DNA from: a bacterium
GTDB lineage: Bacteria; Elusimicrobiota; Elusimicrobia; Elusimicrobiales; UBA9959
Length of the DNA stretch: 64,000 nt
Reading direction: 5' to 3'
Assembly (NCBI GenBank): GCA_021786295.1
Contig: JAJYNO010000026.1
Coordinates: 124,001 to 188,000, forward strand
Part shown: positions 5,547-13,684 of the stretch, piece by piece
Layout of the letters: the number at the start of each line of letters is the position of its first letter
Numbering within the stretch: the first letter of the stretch is position 1
Notes under the pieces: generated by a model
What the model saw: only the letters and a program-made list of their open reading frames with translations
The model's database searches: none
Told to the model about the DNA's origin: nothing
Made by a program: the position numbers and the translations under genes

Positions 5547-6833
5547 CTACTGGTAGGGGTTCGCCGTCATGCTGAGCAGGTAGACGGCCGCCTTCACGTT
5601 GCGGTCCACCGTGCCCTTGATGACGGCAGGACCGGGATAGAAGCCGTCTCCTTCCAGCTCCACCGTGAAGGCCAGCACCTTGTCGGTGGCGTAGGCCCAA
5701 TCGCAGGAATCTCCGGTGGCTATATAAAGGGCGCTGGATTTCTCGGCGGTGTAGCCGGTCAGCTTTGCCATCTGGTCCGCTATCTTGACCAGGGCGGCCT
5801 TGTCCCTGGGGTCGGCCACGTCCTCGTCGCTGCCGCCGTAGGGATACAGGATCTCGCTGGCGTAGGAGTGATAGCTGATATGGGTCTTTATGTTCTTGTG
5901 CGCCAGGAAGAAGTCGCGGATGTCCCGGCTCTCCGGCTCGGAGAAAGCCTTGGGCCCGCAGTAGGTGTCCGACGGAGGATAGTGCGAGGCCCCCTCCCGG
6001 CACCACCAGGAATCGAAGTTGCGGTTCAGGTCCACTCCGAAGGAGCCGTCGGAGTTCTTCTCCATGTTCTTGCGGAAGTACTGGTACTGGCCGTCCTTGA
6101 TGTCGTACTCCACCCCGTCCGGGTTGGCCATCGGGATGATGAAGATGTCCAGCGTGGAGATATAGTTTTTGATCTCAGGATCGTTGCGGTGGTCCATCAG
6201 CCAGGACGCGAACAGGAGCGGCACCTCGTCGGCCAGGTGCTCCCGGGCGTGGATGTTCCCCATGAAGAAGGCGCCTGGCTTGTCGCTGGGGCCGTTCCCC
6301 TTGACGCTGGTATTGACGCGCAGGCACCAGATGTCCCGGCCCTGCACGGTCTTGCCGATGGAGAAGACCGAGGCTATATCCGGGTTCTTGGCCGCCAGCT
6401 GCCTGAGCAGGTCGGTGGTCTCCTGGTAGTTGTGGTAGACGGCGTCGGCCTGGGGGAAATCCCGGGAGACCCCGGAAGAGTAGTCCGCGAGAGGCCGGCT
6501 GCTGAGCACACTTACGGCCCTGGAAGAGAGGCGGTCCAGCAGGGCCTTGTCCGCTATGCCGGAGACGGTCCGTCTGTCCTTGCTGACCACCACTATATCG
6601 AAGCCCTCCTCAAGCAGGCGGGTGCGCGAGCGCTTATCCGGCGCCGCTATGGTGACCCAGTAACGCCCGTCGGCCCGCTGTCCCGGGACGGCCTTGGGGG
6701 CCGGCGCCGGCGCGGCTGGAGGCGGGGCCGATATCTGCTCCAGGAGCTGGGCATAGGATGAAGAGGAAGCGGCCGCCAGCGAGGGCAGAACAGAAAGCGA
6801 GGCTAGGATCAGCGGCACCAGTATCTTTTTCAT
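5547..6833 (-). CDS. Secreted zinc carboxypeptidase (peptidase M14)
   Basis: The 428-aa protein begins with a clear signal peptide (MKKILVPLILASLSVLPSLAAA), then a propeptide-like region to about residue 120. The catalytic M14 domain follows, with zinc ligands in GNIHAREH (His195, Glu198) and His322 of HISYHS, the substrate-binding DLNRNF motif, and the catalytic Glu392 in FTVELEGD. It should hydrolyse C-terminal residues of peptides outside the inner membrane. The start is supported by GGAGAG about 10 nt upstream. A long AT-rich stretch (6863-6885) upstream probably holds its promoter. It is not linked to an operon. Confidence 0.93.
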   Translation of the reverse strand: MKKILVPLILASLSVLPSLAAASSSSYAQLLEQISAPPPAAPAPAPKAVPGQRADGRYWVTIAAPDKRSRTRLLEEGFDIVVVSKDRRTVSGIADKALLDRLSSRAVSVLSSRPLADYSSGVSRDFPQADAVYHNYQETTDLLRQLAAKNPDIASVFSIGKTVQGRDIWCLRVNTSVKGNGPSDKPGAFFMGNIHAREHLADEVPLLFASWLMDHRNDPEIKNYISTLDIFIIPMANPDGVEYDIKDGQYQYFRKNMEKNSDGSFGVDLNRNFDSWWCREGASHYPPSDTYCGPKAFSEPESRDIRDFFLAHKNIKTHISYHSYASEILYPYGGSDEDVADPRDKAALVKIADQMAKLTGYTAEKSSALYIATGDSCDWAYATDKVLAFTVELEGDGFYPGPAVIKGTVDRNVKAAVYLLSMTANPYQ

Positions 6834-6957: not shown

Positions 6958-7572
6958 TCAAAAAAAAGGCTTCAGCCCCAGCGCCAGGTACCAGAGGCCG
7001 GCCAGCAGCAGCGTAAGGCGGCCTATCTCGTTAGCCCGGCTGCCCAGCCAGGGAGTACCGAGCATGACCGGCGCGGTGAAGAGCGTGGTGGCGGAGAAGA
7101 AACCGGTGAAGTAGACGAGACCTCTGGGCACGTCCGCAAGCTGGAGCAGGCGCATCAGCCCCGCTGCGAAGGGCGGGCAGACGTTTATTCCGGTGACGAA
7201 GCCGAGCAGCAGCGGGATGCGGCGGAACCAGGGGTTCAGGTCCGCCCTCAGCGGACAGGGGCCGCCGCCCCCGGAGACCCTGAAGACGGCCAGGAAAACC
7301 ATCAGGAGGCCGCAGGCCGCCATTCCGGCCGGCAGCGCCCACGCCGGCAGGGCGTAGCGGCCGGCCTCGCCGAGCGCGCTGGCCAGTACGGCGAAGAGGA
7401 GATAGGCGGCGAAGCGACCCCCGGTGAACTGCAGGAAGATGCCGAAATTGAACCACCAGGCCGTCTTCCCCTCCGCCAGCAGGTACGGGGCCAGCAGAGG
7501 CAGGCAGGAGGCAAGGCAGTAGAAGCCCGTGGAGAGGCCCAGCAAAAAGCCTTCCGAAAAAAGGGCCGGCAC
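6958..7572 (-). CDS. DsbD_2/CcdA-like membrane protein (sulfite exporter TauE/SafE-like superfamily)
   Basis: The 204-aa protein has six predicted membrane helices and the paired-cysteine pattern of the CcdA/DsbD membrane domain: GFYCLASCLPLL (Cys19, Cys23) in helix 1 and GINVCPPF in the second half. Such proteins pass reducing equivalents, or in related families metal ions or small solutes, across the inner membrane. I chose GTG at 7572, two bases after the stop of the Cys4 gene; the longer open frame to 7755 would run wholly over that gene. It is the last gene of the tight three-gene redox cluster 8922-6958. Confidence 0.72.
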   Translation of the reverse strand: MPALFSEGFLLGLSTGFYCLASCLPLLAPYLLAEGKTAWWFNFGIFLQFTGGRFAAYLLFAVLASALGEAGRYALPAWALPAGMAACGLLMVFLAVFRVSGGGGPCPLRADLNPWFRRIPLLLGFVTGINVCPPFAAGLMRLLQLADVPRGLVYFTGFFSATTLFTAPVMLGTPWLGSRANEIGRLTLLLAGLWYLALGLKPFF

Positions 7573-7788: not shown

Positions 7789-8922
7789 TCACCCGAAGAT
7801 CAGTTTGACCATGTCGCGCAGCGCCGCCGGGACCCACAGGGACGAGAAGGCCGTGGCCAGCGTCAGCGCCGAAAAAACGTAGAAATACTTCACCGATATC
7901 AGCGCGCCGGCGGCCCCGCCGAAGGACGGCAGCTCCAGGCCGAAGACAGTATAGCGCAGCGCACCGGAAGGGCAGGCGTCCAGACACTGGCCGCAGAGGT
8001 TGCAGTAGGCCAGTATCTCCGGCCGCGCGCCAGGGGCGGACCTTACGGCGTTCATCGGACAGGCGCGCCCGCAGGTCCCGCAGGCCGAGCACTTCGCGGC
8101 GTCGCAGGTCAGACGGAAAGGGTTCAGCCTGCCCCAGAAGGCCTGCCAGGCGGCAAAAGGGCAGAGATAGGAGCAGAAGGTCCTTTTCCCGGTCAGCAGC
8201 GGGCCCGCGACCAGCGCGGCCAGCGAAAGCCCCATCAGGCCGTACTGCGCGGCGCGCTCTCCGCCGTCCCTGGCGAGAAAGGCCCCGGTGAACTTGAACG
8301 GGCAGAGCCAGAGACAGTACTCCGGAGCCATGTTGGCCAGCGAGACCAGCAGGAAGAAGATCAGCAGCGCGGCGGGCAGGTCGCGCAGGGCGCGAAGGCG
8401 CCCGGTCCCGACCAGGGGGCGCCGCGCCGCGGAACTCAGCCCGTCGTCTATGCCGCCGTAGAAGCAGGCCCAGGAGCACCAGCCGCGGCCGATGGCCAGC
8501 GTGACAAAAAGCCACGCCGCGCCTAGGGACAGCGGCCCCCACAGCCGCCAGCCCGCGCTCATGAGCGCCAGGTACTGCTGGTAGAGATAGCCGAGAAAAT
8601 AGGGGGCCATGGCTATGTGGCAGTACGGGGCGCTGGCGAAGCAGGCCGGGGCGAGGGCCTTGTCCAGCAGACCCAGCTTGAAATGCGCCAGAAAAGCCAG
8701 GGCGGAGACGGAGAAGAAGAGCCTGCGGTAGAAGGAGACCCGCCCGGTGTAGGCTATGGCGAAAGCGGAGGCCCCGGCGAAAACGGCCCAGGCCAGGGCA
8801 TAAAAGCGGCTTATTTCCCGACCGACGATAAGTCCTGAAAAGATGAAAGCGGGAACAAAGACCAGCGCGGCGAAAAGACCCGCCGCCGCGGCTTTCCCCC
8901 CCCGTGAAACTGCCGGTTCCAT
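7789..8922 (-). CDS. NapH/NosR-type membrane polyferredoxin (4Fe-4S)
   Basis: The 377-aa membrane protein has an N-terminal block of about four helices, then NapH-type cysteine loops GRGWCSWACF, YCLWLCPF and FCSYLCPF. A C-terminal two-cluster ferredoxin domain follows: CSACGTCGRACPM and CNLCGQCLDACPSG. NapH/NosR/CcoG-type proteins move electrons between the quinone pool or cytoplasm and periplasmic partners. I placed the start at ATG 8922, which has GGAGG 8 nt upstream; the longer TTG start at 8937 overlaps that ribosome site. With the Cys4 protein and the CcdA-like protein it forms a trans-membrane redox module. No terminal reductase is seen nearby. Confidence 0.85.
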   Translation of the reverse strand: MEPAVSRGGKAAAAGLFAALVFVPAFIFSGLIVGREISRFYALAWAVFAGASAFAIAYTGRVSFYRRLFFSVSALAFLAHFKLGLLDKALAPACFASAPYCHIAMAPYFLGYLYQQYLALMSAGWRLWGPLSLGAAWLFVTLAIGRGWCSWACFYGGIDDGLSSAARRPLVGTGRLRALRDLPAALLIFFLLVSLANMAPEYCLWLCPFKFTGAFLARDGGERAAQYGLMGLSLAALVAGPLLTGKRTFCSYLCPFAAWQAFWGRLNPFRLTCDAAKCSACGTCGRACPMNAVRSAPGARPEILAYCNLCGQCLDACPSGALRYTVFGLELPSFGGAAGALISVKYFYVFSALTLATAFSSLWVPAALRDMVKLIFG

Positions 8923-8941
8923 CGGCTGCGCCTCCAATTAG

Positions 8942-8956: not shown

Positions 8957-11002
8957 ATGGGGCTTTTCCTTCTATTCGGGTTCTATTCGCTGCTGGCGCA
9001 GGTGCTGCTGCTGCGCGAGGCGAGCCAGGTCTTCGGCGCGCAGGAGCTTTCGCTGGCGGCCGCGCTTTCCTTCTGGCTCTTGTGGACCGCTGGCGGCGTC
9101 AGGCTGGGCTCCGGCGCGGCGAAGAAACTCCCCTTCGCGGCGGCCGCGCTGCTCTTGCCGGCGGCGGCCGCGCTGAACCTGCTGCTGGCCAGGCTGGGCC
9201 CCGCCTTCCTGCCCGCCCTCTCGCGGCCGGGGCTCTTCACGATGCTGGCCGGCTCCGCCCTGCTCTGCCTGCCGGCGGCCCTGGCCAACGGCTGGGCCGC
9301 CGGCGGCGCGCTGGCCGGCAGGCCTGCCTTATTCTACGCGGCCGAGGCGGCCGGCTCCGCCGCGGCGGGGCTCCTCAGCGTGGCGTACTACCGCTGGTTC
9401 CCCGGGCTGGACCCGGCGGCGCTGCTGGCAGCCGCGGCCCTGCCGCTGGCGGCCGCCTGCGCCCTTTCCCGCCCGATGTCGCGCCGCCGCGCGGCCGCCG
9501 CGGTCCTCTGCGTTCTGGTCTCGGCCGCCGCCGCGGGCCTCGCTCCGCGCTGCTACAGGCTCAAGCCGCCGGCCCCGCGCCCGGACTCCGTAGTGAACAC
9601 CGAAGGCTCGCGCCTGGCCCTGGCGAAGGACGGCGGGCTCTCCTTCTACGAGGACGGGCGCCTGCTGCACGCCCCGGAGGACCCCTCGCCGGAAGAACTG
9701 GTGCACGTACCGCTGCTCTCGCTGCGCCCGCGCAGGGTCCTGCTGCACGGCGCCGGCGCCTTCTTCGCCCTCCCCGAAGTGCTCAAGCACAAGCCGCGCG
9801 AGACCGCCATAGCCGAGCCCGACCGCTTTTTCGCCGCCGCGCTGGAAAAGCGCACCGGCGCCGACGCGGGGAGATTCACGCTGCTAGACGAGGACCCGCG
9901 CGCCATAAAGGGGAAGGACGGCTATTACTCCGCGATCCTCAACGCCGGGGGGCCGCCCGAGAACGCGGCCCAGAACAGGTTCTACACGCTGGAGTATTTC
10001 CGCAAGGCCGCCTCGCTGCTGGCCCCCGGAGGAGCGCTGGTCTTCCAGCTACCTTTCGCGGCCAATTACGTGCCTCCGGAGCAGGCCTACGGCGCGGCCT
10101 GCGTCCTGGCCTCGGCGCGAGAGGTCTTCCCGCACATAGAGCTGCTGCCGGGGAACAAACTGACGGTCATAGCCTCCTCCGGGGCGGTGGACCTGGACCA
10201 GGCGGACCTGGCCGCCGCGTACGCGGCCAGGGGATTAAAGACCAGGACGGTGGTCCCGTCGGCCTTCCCGTTCATGCTGGACCCCTACCGCCGGGCCTGG
10301 GCCGCGGCGGCTATCGGGGCGGTTAGGTCCCCCCCGCTAAACACCGACCTGAACCCGCTGGCCTACTTCAGGTTCTGGAAGGCCTGGCTTTCCATGGTGA
10401 TGACGCCCTCCTCGCTTCTGGGCCTGGCCGGACTGCTCCTGGCCGCGGCCGCAGCCGGGCTGAAACTGCGCCGGACGCTCAGGTTCTCCCCCGACGAGCG
10501 CACCGGGGAGGCCTTCCTGATGGGCTTCTGGGGGCTGGCCTTCGAGACGGCGGCGCTGCTGGCCTTCCAGTCGAGGACCGGCCGGCTCAGCCCCGAGCTG
10601 GGAGAGATGTTCGCGCTTTTCATGGCCGGGGCCGCGGCAGGAGCCTGGGCCGCCCGGCGGGCCGGCCGCCGGCGCATACCTGTCTTCGAGGGGGCGGCGG
10701 TACTGCTGGCCTTGCTCGCGGCGCTGCGGCCCGAGCTGGCCCAGCATGCCTGGGGAGCGCGAGCGCTGATCCTTTCCGGGGGCGCCGTCTCCGGGGCCTT
10801 CTTCGCGGCCGCGGCCGGCGCGACCGGGCCGCAGGTGTATTCCTGGGACCTGATAGGCGGGGCCGCTGGCGGGCTGGCCGCGGCGGCCTTCGCCGCCCCG
10901 ATGACCGGCATCGCCGGCGCCATGTACCTGGCCGCCGCCTCGGCGGCCGCGGCGCTGGCCGGCTACTTCGTCTCCCTGAAGGCGTCCACGGTAAAAGAAT
11001 AG
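8957..11002 (+). CDS. Membrane protein with degenerate spermidine-synthase-like domain
   Basis: The 681-aa protein has about seven N-terminal helices (residues 1-200), a soluble Rossmann-like domain (about 210-450) and a further C-terminal helical block (about 480-675). This is the layout of fused membrane/spermidine-synthase proteins. The middle domain retains LRPRRVLLHGAGAF, EPDRFF and the RFYTLEYFRKAASLL segment equivalent to LFTxEFYxxxxxxL. The usual GGGxG SAM loop has decayed to GAGAF, and the catalytic Asp region is not obvious. True polyamine synthesis is therefore doubtful. The last 40 nt overlap the convergent MEMO1-AMMECR1 gene. Confidence 0.72.
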   Translation: MGLFLLFGFYSLLAQVLLLREASQVFGAQELSLAAALSFWLLWTAGGVRLGSGAAKKLPFAAAALLLPAAAALNLLLARLGPAFLPALSRPGLFTMLAGSALLCLPAALANGWAAGGALAGRPALFYAAEAAGSAAAGLLSVAYYRWFPGLDPAALLAAAALPLAAACALSRPMSRRRAAAAVLCVLVSAAAAGLAPRCYRLKPPAPRPDSVVNTEGSRLALAKDGGLSFYEDGRLLHAPEDPSPEELVHVPLLSLRPRRVLLHGAGAFFALPEVLKHKPRETAIAEPDRFFAAALEKRTGADAGRFTLLDEDPRAIKGKDGYYSAILNAGGPPENAAQNRFYTLEYFRKAASLLAPGGALVFQLPFAANYVPPEQAYGAACVLASAREVFPHIELLPGNKLTVIASSGAVDLDQADLAAAYAARGLKTRTVVPSAFPFMLDPYRRAWAAAAIGAVRSPPLNTDLNPLAYFRFWKAWLSMVMTPSSLLGLAGLLLAAAAAGLKLRRTLRFSPDERTGEAFLMGFWGLAFETAALLAFQSRTGRLSPELGEMFALFMAGAAAGAWAARRAGRRRIPVFEGAAVLLALLAALRPELAQHAWGARALILSGGAVSGAFFAAAAGATGPQVYSWDLIGGAAGGLAAAAFAAPMTGIAGAMYLAAASAAAALAGYFVSLKASTVKE

Positions 11003-12435
11003 AGCTCCGTCCCTTTCTGCTTCCAGCAGTCGCGCGGAAGCCCCGCCTTCTGGGAGCAGAGCTCCCCCATGAAAGCGTCCTTGCCGGGCAGTTCCTCCCA
11101 GACCTGCGGCAGGAAGAGTCCGCTGTGGCCGTCCCTGGCCACCACCACGCCCTCCTTGCCCGGCTTTATGTCCCCGGCCTTGACCGGCGTTAGCGGCGAG
11201 AGGACCGAGACCTCTATCCTCACCTTGCCCAGTTCGTCACGCCCGAGCGGGCCGAACCTGCGGTCGCGGAAAGCCGCGCTGAAAGCGGCGAAGCGCACCG
11301 CGTCCATGAGCGTCATGGCCGGCTCCACCGTGCCTACGCAGCCGCGCAGCTTCCCGTCCTCGGTGAGCGTCACGAAGACCGACCCCGGCAGGTCCAGGCG
11401 CGGGTCGGGGTCCAGACCCGCCGGCTGAGGCTCGCCGGCGAAGACGCGCTCCAGCGTCCGGCGCGCCTCCTTCAGCAGGGCCTGCCGCTCGGCGGAGGAG
11501 AGGGCGAGGTCCGCCGGCTTTCCGGCGTCGGTGAAGACCCCGCTCATGTAACCCACCACCGACTCCGGCCCGGCCTCGCTGTTCTCCGCCGAGGAATCCG
11601 AGAGCGCCAGCGGAGCGAACGACTTCGCGCCCAAAAGCTTCGCCGCCGTCATGCCGGCCTCTATTGCCGCCTCGCCGCAGGCGCAGGTGACGAGCCCCGG
11701 GATGTTCTTGGCCAGCATGTAATGGGCCGCAGTCCAGACCAGGGCGGGGTCCAGGCTCTCGATGGCCAGCTTCATCGCGCCGTCGGACTCCGCAGCCGCG
11801 GCCTTCGGCGGATAATGCGAGAAGTCCGAGGAAATGACTATCAGCGCCTTCCTGCCCTTCAGCGCGGCGGCCAGCGCCCGCCCGACGGCCTCGGCCGTCG
11901 CCAGGTCGTCCGTGTTGAGCGTGGCGGCCAGCAGCTTGAACGGCTTCCTCAGGCGGCGCTGCAGGAAAGGCAGCTGCACCTCTATGGAGTGCTCCTTCGC
12001 GTGCGCGGCGGGATCGTCCTTGAAGAGGGGGTTCGACTTGATCAGCTCGGCGGCCAGGGTCCGGTCCGTCGGCACCTTCCCAAGGGGGGTGCTGTAGTCG
12101 TCCGAGGCCAGGAGCGCGGCGCCCCTGACCGGCACGTAATGGCCGGTGCCCAGCACCACCACGGTATCGTAGCCGGCGTCCAGGAACCAGTAGGACATGC
12201 CGGCCACGCGCCCGGAGAACTCGTAGCCGGCGTGCGGGGCTATGACGGCCAGCACCCTGCCGGCCGGCCGCCTGGCGTCCTTGGGGACGGAAAGCCAGCC
12301 GTCAACCCGCCTGGCCAGTTCCTCCGGGTCGGACGGATAGAACTTGCCGGCCACGGCTGGCTCGCGCGCGGCGGCAGGCCCTGGCAGCAGCGGCAGCGCC
12401 AAAAAGGCCAGCGCGGCGAAAATCTTATTGTTCAT
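10963..12435 (-). CDS. amrB-amrA: Fused MEMO1-AMMECR1 protein (AmmeMemoRadiSam proteins B and A)
   Basis: The 490-aa protein is a fusion. Residues about 23-290 are MEMO1-like, with the metal-site region VIAPHAGYEFSG, GTGHY (usually GPSHH) and TCACGEAAIEAG. Residues about 310-490 are AMMECR1, with the hallmark KLRGCVGT. A signal peptide precedes both (MNNKIFAALAFLALPLLPGPAAA), so the protein is predicted to be exported. The system's biochemical role is unknown. It lies 19 nt after the radical SAM gene, consistent with a single AmmeMemoRadiSam operon. The ribosome site is GAGGGGG before the ATG. Its 3' end overlaps the convergent gene by 40 nt. The domain identities are secure; export is a prediction. 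Confidence 0.9.
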   Translation of the reverse strand: MNNKIFAALAFLALPLLPGPAAAREPAVAGKFYPSDPEELARRVDGWLSVPKDARRPAGRVLAVIAPHAGYEFSGRVAGMSYWFLDAGYDTVVVLGTGHYVPVRGAALLASDDYSTPLGKVPTDRTLAAELIKSNPLFKDDPAAHAKEHSIEVQLPFLQRRLRKPFKLLAATLNTDDLATAEAVGRALAAALKGRKALIVISSDFSHYPPKAAAAESDGAMKLAIESLDPALVWTAAHYMLAKNIPGLVTCACGEAAIEAGMTAAKLLGAKSFAPLALSDSSAENSEAGPESVVGYMSGVFTDAGKPADLALSSAERQALLKEARRTLERVFAGEPQPAGLDPDPRLDLPGSVFVTLTEDGKLRGCVGTVEPAMTLMDAVRFAAFSAAFRDRRFGPLGRDELGKVRIEVSVLSPLTPVKAGDIKPGKEGVVVARDGHSGLFLPQVWEELPGKDAFMGELCSQKAGLPRDCWKQKGTELYSFTVDAFRETK

Positions 12436-12454
12436 AGTCCCCCTCAGTTCCGGG

Positions 12455-13684
12455 CTACTTCCAGATGCCGGGTATCCTGGTCCCGTCCCAAGGGCAGAGT
12501 CCGCCGGTGGGCGTCAGGCGGTCCTCCAGCACGGCGTAGCCGTAGCGGCGCACCAGCGCGCGCCCGCACTTAGGGCAGTAGGTGTTCTCCCCAGGGTCCC
12601 CCGGCACGTTGCCGACGTAGACGTAATGCAGGCCCTTGGCCATAGCGATCTCCCGCGCCTCGTCCAGCACGGCCGCTGGGGTCGGAGGCGTGTCGGTCAC
12701 CAGGTATTCGGGCATGAACCTGGAGAAGAACAGCGGCGTGTCGGCCCCCAGGTTGTCCTTCACCCAGCCGGACAGGGCGGCCAGGTCCCGCTGGGAGTCG
12801 TTCAGCCCCGGGATCACCAGGTTGACCACCTCCGTCAGCTTCCCCTTTTTCTTAAGCTGCAGCAGCGTCCGCTTGACGGCCTCCAGATCGCCCCCGGCGT
12901 AGCGGCGGTAGAAGGCGGGCGTGAAGCCCTTCAGGTCTATCTTCACCACGTCCATGTAGGGCAGCAGCTCGTCGAGCGGGCGGCGGTTTATGTAGCCCGC
13001 GCTGACCATGACGTTCTTCAGGCCGGCCGCGCGCGCCAGCTTAGCGGTGTCGTACATGTACTCGTAGAAGACCGAGGGCTCGGAATAGGTGAAGGCCACC
13101 GAGCGGCAGTGCGTGGCCTTGGCGTAGCGCACTATCTCCGCCGGGGAGAGAACTGAGGTTGGCGCCGCGGAGAGCTCGCCGTAAAGCCTGCCGTCCGGCC
13201 CCTTCCTCACGGCCAGGGCGGAAGGAACCGCCGCCGAGGGCGGGAGCTGCTCCGGGTAGACCTGAGAGATCTCCCAGTTCTGGCAGCCCCTGCACCTGAG
13301 GTTGCAGCCCGGGGCGGCCAGCGAATAGACCAGGCTGCCGGGGTACATGTGGTAGACCGGCTTCTTCTCGATCGGGTCCACGTGCACCGCGGCCGGCAGG
13401 GCGTAGACCAGGGTCTTCAGCTTGCCGCCGGAATTCATGCGCACCCGGCAGCGGCCGCGGGCGCCTTCCGGCAGGAAGCAGTTCCACGGACAGAGACGGC
13501 ACTGCACGCCGCCGCAGACGGAGACGGCGAAACGGGCGTCGCGGACGTGCGGGTTATCTTCGGGGAAGAGGGAGGCGAAGGTGGAAGGAGGCGGCCTGAA
13601 GGCCGTCAGGGCCGCGGCCGCCGCCGCCATGCCCGCGGCCGCGAAGGCCCAGGCGAAGGCGGCGGCCGCGCGCCGGCGGCTCAT
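12455..13684 (-). CDS. amrS: AmmeMemoRadiSam-system radical SAM enzyme
   Basis: The 409-aa protein has a radical SAM motif CNLRCRGCQNW, and upstream the family-specific cysteine cluster CRLCPWNCFLP...GRCRVR. Later come FTYSEPSVFYEYMYD, DLKGF and a C-terminal Cys4 knuckle (CPKCGRAL...GLCPWDG) typical of this family. The N-terminus MSRRRAAAAFAWAF is an RR-containing hydrophobic segment of about 30 residues, consistent with a Tat signal or membrane anchor. That is unusual for an oxygen-sensitive radical enzyme but matches the exported partner next door. It overlaps the LOG gene by ATGA. The substrate is unknown. Confidence 0.92.
   Translation of the reverse strand: MSRRRAAAAFAWAFAAAGMAAAAAALTAFRPPPSTFASLFPEDNPHVRDARFAVSVCGGVQCRLCPWNCFLPEGARGRCRVRMNSGGKLKTLVYALPAAVHVDPIEKKPVYHMYPGSLVYSLAAPGCNLRCRGCQNWEISQVYPEQLPPSAAVPSALAVRKGPDGRLYGELSAAPTSVLSPAEIVRYAKATHCRSVAFTYSEPSVFYEYMYDTAKLARAAGLKNVMVSAGYINRRPLDELLPYMDVVKIDLKGFTPAFYRRYAGGDLEAVKRTLLQLKKKGKLTEVVNLVIPGLNDSQRDLAALSGWVKDNLGADTPLFFSRFMPEYLVTDTPPTPAAVLDEAREIAMAKGLHYVYVGNVPGDPGENTYCPKCGRALVRRYGYAVLEDRLTPTGGLCPWDGTRIPGIWK

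Follow-up and report, generated by a model that had tools for sequence, protein, structure and literature searches.

The AmmeMemoRadiSam system brings together three protein families, namely A (TIGR04335, AMMECR1), B (TIGR04336, MEMO1) and a radical S-adenosylmethionine (SAM) enzyme (TIGR04337). The trio is widely conserved and of unexplained role. Radical SAM chemistry is regarded as cytosolic, given its requirement for SAM and a strong reductant and the need to protect its cluster; since such enzymes are usually intracellular, a version of the trio with export signals is unexpected. Here, we describe such a version in a 64,000-nucleotide stretch of DNA (hereafter, the window; contig JAJYNO010000026.1, positions 124,001 to 188,000) from a bacterium of the Elusimicrobiales. 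The window encodes all three families, with A and B fused in one chain, but it differs from the described system by export segments on both chains and by conserved membrane neighbours. We consider it fairly probable that this is an extracytoplasmic AmmeMemoRadiSam system with its own supply of electrons and possibly of SAM. The family itself is known; in the open-licence papers searched, however, we found no extracytoplasmic version with these partners, no periplasmic radical SAM enzyme, no AMMECR1 together with MEMO1 and a radical SAM enzyme, and no fused major facilitator superfamily (MFS)-spermidine synthase. In the available excerpt of one paper (PMC10924467), a radical SAM gene appears only as a neighbour.

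The MEMO-AMMECR1 fusion and the radical SAM enzyme of the window

The B, A and radical SAM models all match above their curated cut-offs and are encoded by adjacent genes, 19 bases apart (Table 1). In the fusion, B precedes A, with TIGR04336 matching residues 24–301 (219.7 bits; cut-off 26) and TIGR04335 matching residues 319–486 (165.6 bits; cut-off 99). The protein matches the solved structures 1zq7 (88 bits) and human MEMO1 7kq8 (83 bits) by sequence, and the radical SAM enzyme matches no solved structure. The gene start is preceded by a purine-rich ribosome site (GAGGGGGACT ATG). Residues 1–23 (MNNKIFAALAFLALPLLPGPAAA) look like a cleavable signal peptide, with a hydrophobic maximum of 2.87 over 10 residues, and they change fast, as 3 synonymous and 7 non-synonymous codon differences from the congener L042 fall within these 23 codons (L and G denote the loci and genomes of our samples). 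These results bear out the sequence-only reading, a note made from the letters of the window, which had proposed a MEMO1-AMMECR1 fusion with a signal peptide.

Within the MEMO domain, H68, H99, H149 and H207 are present in 55/55 sequences and C253 in 54/55. H68 and H99 align with H49 and H81 of human MEMO1, which the available excerpt of PMC11081632 gives as iron ligands, and C253 is presumably the counterpart of human C244. The window protein differs from human MEMO1 in being fused to AMMECR1 and predicted to be secreted. In the AMMECR1 motif, L363, R364, C366 and G368 occur in all 55 sequences and G365 in 54 of them.

The radical SAM enzyme begins with a hydrophobic segment that is preceded by positive charges and has no clear cleavage site (MSRRRAAAAFAWAFAAAGMAAAAAALTAF), so that it looks more like an anchor than a cleavable signal. 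Codons 1–57 show 8 synonymous and 4 non-synonymous differences from L042, and the remaining codons show 55 and 28, respectively. Furthermore, among the loci that share the window's subtype (13, the window and L035–L046), 12 have a hydrophobic N-terminus, the exception being L040. Because the codons are conserved as protein and the segment recurs, a mis-called start was ruled out and the segment is no start-site artefact. The arginine pair is a different matter: the sequence-only reading had pointed to an RR-containing hydrophobic segment, and the segment is real, but relatives begin with MSPKGR, MTLQGR or MRPLPT, and the RR is therefore no twin-arginine translocation (Tat) motif. The window's genome, G000 (2.3 Mb), gave no TatC profile match, being 79% complete, and one search of 21 genomes found matches in three, of which one scores below the cut-off. 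We therefore rejected Tat export for the window enzyme. By our own rule for a general secretory (Sec) signal or anchor, that is, a charged n-region and a hydrophobic core conserved in orthologues, both proteins of the window pair carry one, and the pair is likely to be extracytoplasmic, judging from these N-termini.

The TIGR04337 model does not cover the anchor, as its profile position 10 corresponds to about residue 58 of the window enzyme. An insert of ~28–30 residues after CQNWEISQ (residues ~141–172) is characteristic of the window subtype (13 loci) and interrupts the TIGR04337 match. A second TIGR04337 gene of G000 (L047, on G000:C24) has no N-terminal segment. The sequence-only reading had held that homologues without the segment, together with a conserved downstream start inside this one, would refute its proposal; homologues without it exist, as a separate class and as exceptions, and the segment of the window subtype stands.

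Table 1. Positions of the features in the window
Feature	Position	Strand	Basis
MEMO1-AMMECR1 fusion (AmmeMemoRadiSam B + A), predicted exported	10963..12435	-	490 aa; TIGR04336, TIGR04335, Memo and AMMECR1 Pfam
Signal peptide of the fusion, residues 1-23, AAA then REPAVAG	12367..12435	-	sequence, hydropathy
MEMO domain	11533..12366	-	TIGR04336; residue conservation
AMMECR1 domain, L363-R364-G365-C366-x-G368	10978..11481	-	TIGR04335; residue conservation
AmmeMemoRadiSam radical SAM enzyme with N-terminal anchor	12455..13684	-	409 aa; TIGR04337 327.5 bits (cut-off 220); PF04055
N-terminal charged and hydrophobic segment, residues 1-29, predicted N-in/C-out anchor	13598..13684	-	sequence, codon comparison
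CxxxCxxC cluster-binding motif, C126, C130, C133	13286..13309	-	alignment A1
DsbD_2 (CcdA/DsbD-type) membrane protein	6958..7572	-	PF13386 36.1 bits (cut-off 24.9)
NapH-like membrane 4Fe-4S protein	7789..8937	-	TIGR02163 napH 57.7 bits, below cut-off 213; Fer4_5, Fer4 Pfam
MFS-like membrane protein with inserted spermidine-synthase-like domain	8957..11002	+	AlphaFold model, structure matches
Spermidine-synthase-like domain, about residues 200-480, predicted extracytoplasmic	9554..10396	+	charge alternation, 50 homologues

Export signals across the family

Could such export be a wider property of the family? TIGR04337 matches occur in 90 of the 198 genomes of the phylum sample, 60 of them over the cut-off. 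A broad sample was taken by scanning named genomes with a 30-row alignment (A1), from which the best 80 loci were kept, together with loci of the window's phylum; A1 begins with an exported protein, which biases the sample towards the exported class. It holds 135 radical SAM open reading frames (ORFs) of at least 200 bits in 134 loci (L035–L167 and the window), the short loci L001–L034 being left out. By N-terminus, 49 of the enzymes are Tat-like, 41 have a Sec-type signal or anchor and 45 are signal-less. Thus, in the survey of N-termini across phyla that the sequence-only reading had proposed, export-type starts recur in 90 of the 135 genes. Textbook Tat starts (e.g., SRREFLK) occur in Omnitrophota, Desulfobacterales, Bacteroidales, Planctomycetota, Latescibacterota and other loci, and short, cleavable-looking Sec-type signals occur in L075, L072 and L116. 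These N-termini make an extracytoplasmic location of the exported class very likely.

An RRxF-type motif coincides with TatC in the genome, as expected for a Tat substrate, in 46 of the 49 Tat-like enzymes. TatC was found for 16 of the 41 Sec/anchor types (25 without) and 22 of the 45 signal-less enzymes (23 without), and the comparison of Tat with Sec gives a Fisher p of 1.3e-8, with some genomes counted twice and kinship uncorrected. In a second sample, from Omnitrophota, TIGR04337 has matches in 117 of 145 genomes; 90 loci were read, of which L235 and L247 were dropped because they repeat L103 and L145. For the genomes in which TatC was sought, our rule gave 7 with and 1 without it for the Tat class, 5 and 32 for Sec, and 23 and 5 for signal-less enzymes. 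After correction by hand (L280 and L250 to Sec, the second L242 gene to Tat, L211 to signal-less and L230 dropped as broken), the counts were 7 and 0 for Tat and 5 and 32 for Sec. A 223-row tree implies no fewer than 10 changes of export state and 11 exchanges between Sec and Tat. In L242 and L076 (6056-8249), two radical SAM genes of the family lie side by side, one with and one without a signal in L076.

Export signals of the fused partner

For 55 pairs of radical SAM and MEMO genes within 5 kb, excluding those with MEMO cut by the locus end, the signal of the MEMO fusion matches the class of the radical SAM enzyme in 50, with both exported in 44 and neither in 6. Put differently, of the 45 pairs with an exported radical SAM enzyme, 44 also carry a signal on the fused partner. 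Lipobox ends in L078, L114, L226, L228 and L262 place MEMO outside the inner membrane. The fusion itself was tried as a mark of export and rejected, as 57 of the 58 MEMO hits of the sample are fused to AMMECR1, including those of the signal-less loci L062-L064, L142, L147 and L163; the sole unfused hit (L102) is cut by the locus end, and its next ORF is AMMECR1.

Membrane neighbours as candidate electron carriers

A family census of 1646 ORFs, made without prior labels, showed that besides the radical SAM and MEMO/AMMECR1 genes two families recur next to the exported class, namely DsbD_2 and the MFS protein with a spermidine-synthase-like domain. DsbD_2 lies within 5 kb of the radical SAM gene for 24/41 Sec-type, 0/49 Tat-type and 1/45 signal-less enzymes, and a napH-like gene lies within this distance in 14/41, 1/49 and 2/45, respectively. 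The window's DsbD_2 protein exceeds the PF13386 cut-off and has the paired membrane cysteines of the DsbD/CcdA thiol electron carriers, which are invariant among relatives (a C...C pair in the first helix in 28/28 and C.P in a later helix in 27/27). Judging from relatives, its gene likely starts at the GTG at 7572, though the ORF reaches 7755.

The partner of the carrier, on the other hand, is here a radical SAM enzyme, to which it would transfer electrons by analogy, and in five genomes the two are fused. L141 (Lentisphaeria) encodes both in one open frame (PF13386 and PF04055 in one chain), and a frame without internal stop was found in 5 of 59 related genomes (G262, G289, G291, G298 and G295, the last with a match split in two within a single 684-residue frame). 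Positive loops follow helices 1, 3 and 5 in four of the five chains read, the listing of L171 being incomplete, and this pattern predicts that the radical SAM domain of these chains is outside. A likeness to NosR/NapH, the suppliers of periplasmic reductases, appears in L096 and L098, in which FMN_bind and Fer4_5 stand beside the radical SAM gene; these two are fused with DsbD_2, and L092 looks alike. The napH-like protein of the window shares this likeness, but it falls below the napH cut-off. By analogy with these carriers, DsbD2 is a reasonably probable reductant of the radical SAM enzyme. In L111, a DUF362-ferredoxin gene (1413-2519, +) overlaps the end of a Sec-type radical SAM gene.

Location of the radical SAM domain

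Alternatively, the radical SAM enzyme might merely be tethered, with its catalytic domain in the cytosol, MEMO-AMMECR1 alone secreted and the membrane neighbours serving something else. Such a reading fits the cytosolic location of SAM and low-potential donors, as well as an Omnitrophota subgroup in which a signal-less radical SAM enzyme stands beside an exported MEMO. Yet the Tat-like signals (49/135, 46 in genomes with TatC) argue against it, as Tat exports, and so do the short, cleavable-looking Sec-type ends, the positive charges that precede the window segment and the charge pattern of the DsbD2-radical SAM chains. Taken together, we regard mere tethering as unlikely.

Several observations nevertheless weigh against an extracytoplasmic system. 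The signals, and hence all class counts, were called in two passes by a simple motif and hydropathy rule rather than by SignalP, with one change by hand (L103 to Sec). Tat-like L105, L113 and L120 belong to genomes in which no TatC was found, and pair tests that control for kinship, which had no power with only 3–5 usable pairs, show no link, so that the Fisher p-values are inflated. Discordant pairs occur in both directions, with a signal on MEMO only in L040, L108, L114 and L144 and on the radical SAM enzyme only in L159. Moreover, 17 of the 41 Sec types have no DsbD2 within 5 kb. In Omnitrophota, in which 30 loci span only ~1.5 kb on either side, the rule gave DsbD2 beside 20/37 Sec, 2/8 Tat and 1/44 signal-less enzymes (Sec versus Tat, p 0.24), and the corrected counts were 21/37, 1/7 and 0/44 (p 0.095). 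Thus, the link between Sec and DsbD2 recurs in a second phylum, whereas the contrast with Tat is limited to the first sample.

The signal-less Omnitrophota enzymes also count on this side. Ten of the 44 adjoin the MFS-spermidine protein, and in L226, L228, L262, L251 and L114 a signal-less radical SAM enzyme stands beside an exported lipoprotein or signal-bearing MEMO, which puts the two in different compartments unless the enzyme is co-exported. In this exception group, the radical SAM enzyme begins at the first cysteine motif, with the MFS-spermidine protein nearby and, in some loci, an exported MEMO or NosR-like proteins as well, and from its sequence it looks cytosolic. Hitch-hiking on a Tat partner was sought in 13 loci, among which only L234 showed a convincing Tat signal, in an overlapping ORF. 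In L226 and L262, the signal-less radical SAM genes with lipoprotein MEMO adjoin an ORF that we take to be Lgt-like, a lipoprotein-modifying enzyme.

A membrane protein that may supply SAM

The MFS-spermidine gene is convergent with the fusion gene and overlaps its 3' end by 40 bp. In the AlphaFold model of the window protein (mean predicted local distance difference test score, pLDDT, 90.9), the insert resembles spermidine synthases (Z 26.8 over 270 residues, root-mean-square deviation (rmsd) 2.7), and the helices match MFS entries (Z 21–25, 308–337 residues, rmsd 3.7–4.5; SV2A 25.0, G6PT1 24.4, FLVCR1 23.4), so that both folds stand in one chain and the protein is a putative transporter. In 50 homologues, the mean number of K + R per loop alternates, being 0.06, 3.12, 0.94, 2.48, 0.70 and 2.70 before the insert and 2.82, 0.60, 3.80, 1.20 and 2.14 after it; by the positive-inside pattern, the insert is placed outside. 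The domain also differs from spermidine synthases at a presumed catalytic residue. At position 330, chosen through the DSSD-type motif that we take to be catalytic, the first Asp is replaced by A in the window and is mostly lost among the 50 homologues (Asp in 6, Asn in 18; alignment-dependent). The protein lies within 5 kb of 24/41 Sec, 27/49 Tat and 4/45 signal-less enzymes (51 of 90 exported ones), and the corrected Omnitrophota counts are 19/37, 7/7 and 10/44. It is possible, though doubtful, that it supplies SAM. We know of no SAM pool outside the cytoplasm, which weighs against an extracytoplasmic system.

Fold, candidate target and proposed mechanism

In the model of the L141 fusion (pLDDT 87.0), the DsbD2 half of which was barely covered by the structure search, the radical SAM domain is closest to pyruvate formate-lyase activase (Z 23.1, 225 residues, rmsd 2.1), with the next matches at Z 16–17. 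By sequence, the window enzyme matches the NCBIfam activases weakly, always below cut-off. The enzyme differs from glycyl-radical activases in its predicted export, and no glycyl-radical enzyme was noticed beside its gene. Pyruvate formate-lyase activase places a radical on a protein, and the shared fold therefore suggests a protein partner as the likeliest target. By this analogy, the secreted MEMO-AMMECR1 fusion would be the first candidate.

The exported enzymes could instead be degenerate or repurposed folds that bind metal and perform no SAM chemistry outside. Neither SAM nor a suitable reductant is known from the periplasm, which would agree with this. Human MEMO1, moreover, binds iron or copper according to the excerpt of PMC11081632. 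However, alignment A1, which unites 30 exported and signal-less enzymes, has 37 invariant columns, among them the CxxxCxxC cysteines (C101, C105 and C108 of the alignment, 30/30), and the supply-type neighbours are conserved. Such degeneration or repurposing is consequently quite unlikely.

Our preferred reading, an extracytoplasmic system, draws on computed signals, concordance, TatC correlation, neighbours, fusions and folds, from which we infer location, electron flow, SAM supply and target. The radical SAM enzyme would be placed on the outside of the cytoplasmic membrane, by a Sec-type anchor in the window and by a Tat signal in many other lineages, and the MEMO-AMMECR1 fusion would be secreted alongside it. 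Electrons would cross the membrane via a DsbD/CcdA-like carrier and NapH-like or NosR/FMN-like proteins. A Sec-exported enzyme would arrive unfolded, and the DsbD2 route would maintain its cluster cysteines in the reduced state and might also reduce the 4Fe-4S cluster itself. The outside domain of the MFS protein might export and hold SAM, or return adenosine/methionine products. In its fullest form, to which we assign a small chance, the whole system would lie outside, with DsbD/NosR-like electrons and MFS-borne SAM, and the enzyme would place a radical or modification on the secreted fusion, perhaps at R-G-C-x-G; Tat types would travel as folded holo-enzymes without DsbD2, whereas Sec types would arrive unfolded and mature outside with it. 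If true, an enzyme class outside the cytoplasm needs new electron and SAM routes, for which the neighbours are named candidates. The compartment would restrict the possible substrates to secreted molecules or those of the envelope and make the role of MEMO, AMMECR1 and the radical SAM enzyme testable, and the Tat-type versions are open to testing in E. coli.

Isoprenoid genes and other neighbours

The sequence-only reading had also proposed action on an envelope substrate, possibly a prenylated lipid given the nearby ispA and dxs genes. Its envelope side gains from the export-type N-termini, the co-exported partner and the Tat-like forms in TatC genomes; the lipid link does not hold. Although ispA and dxs do accompany the radical SAM and fusion genes in 10 loci, these 10 of 134 all belong to the window's family (with ispA in one further locus, ~6 kb off), the same synteny carries LOG and PorV, and none of the other exported loci examined showed the link. 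A prenylated envelope lipid is thus very unlikely to be what is modified, and the isoprenoid link was rejected. The LOG-like gene (TIGR00730; 13681-14550, -) overlaps the radical SAM start by 4 bases and is linked to it in the window's family only. Just past the DsbD2 gene, 5547-6833 (-) encodes a secreted-looking protein, presumably resembling an M14 zinc carboxypeptidase.

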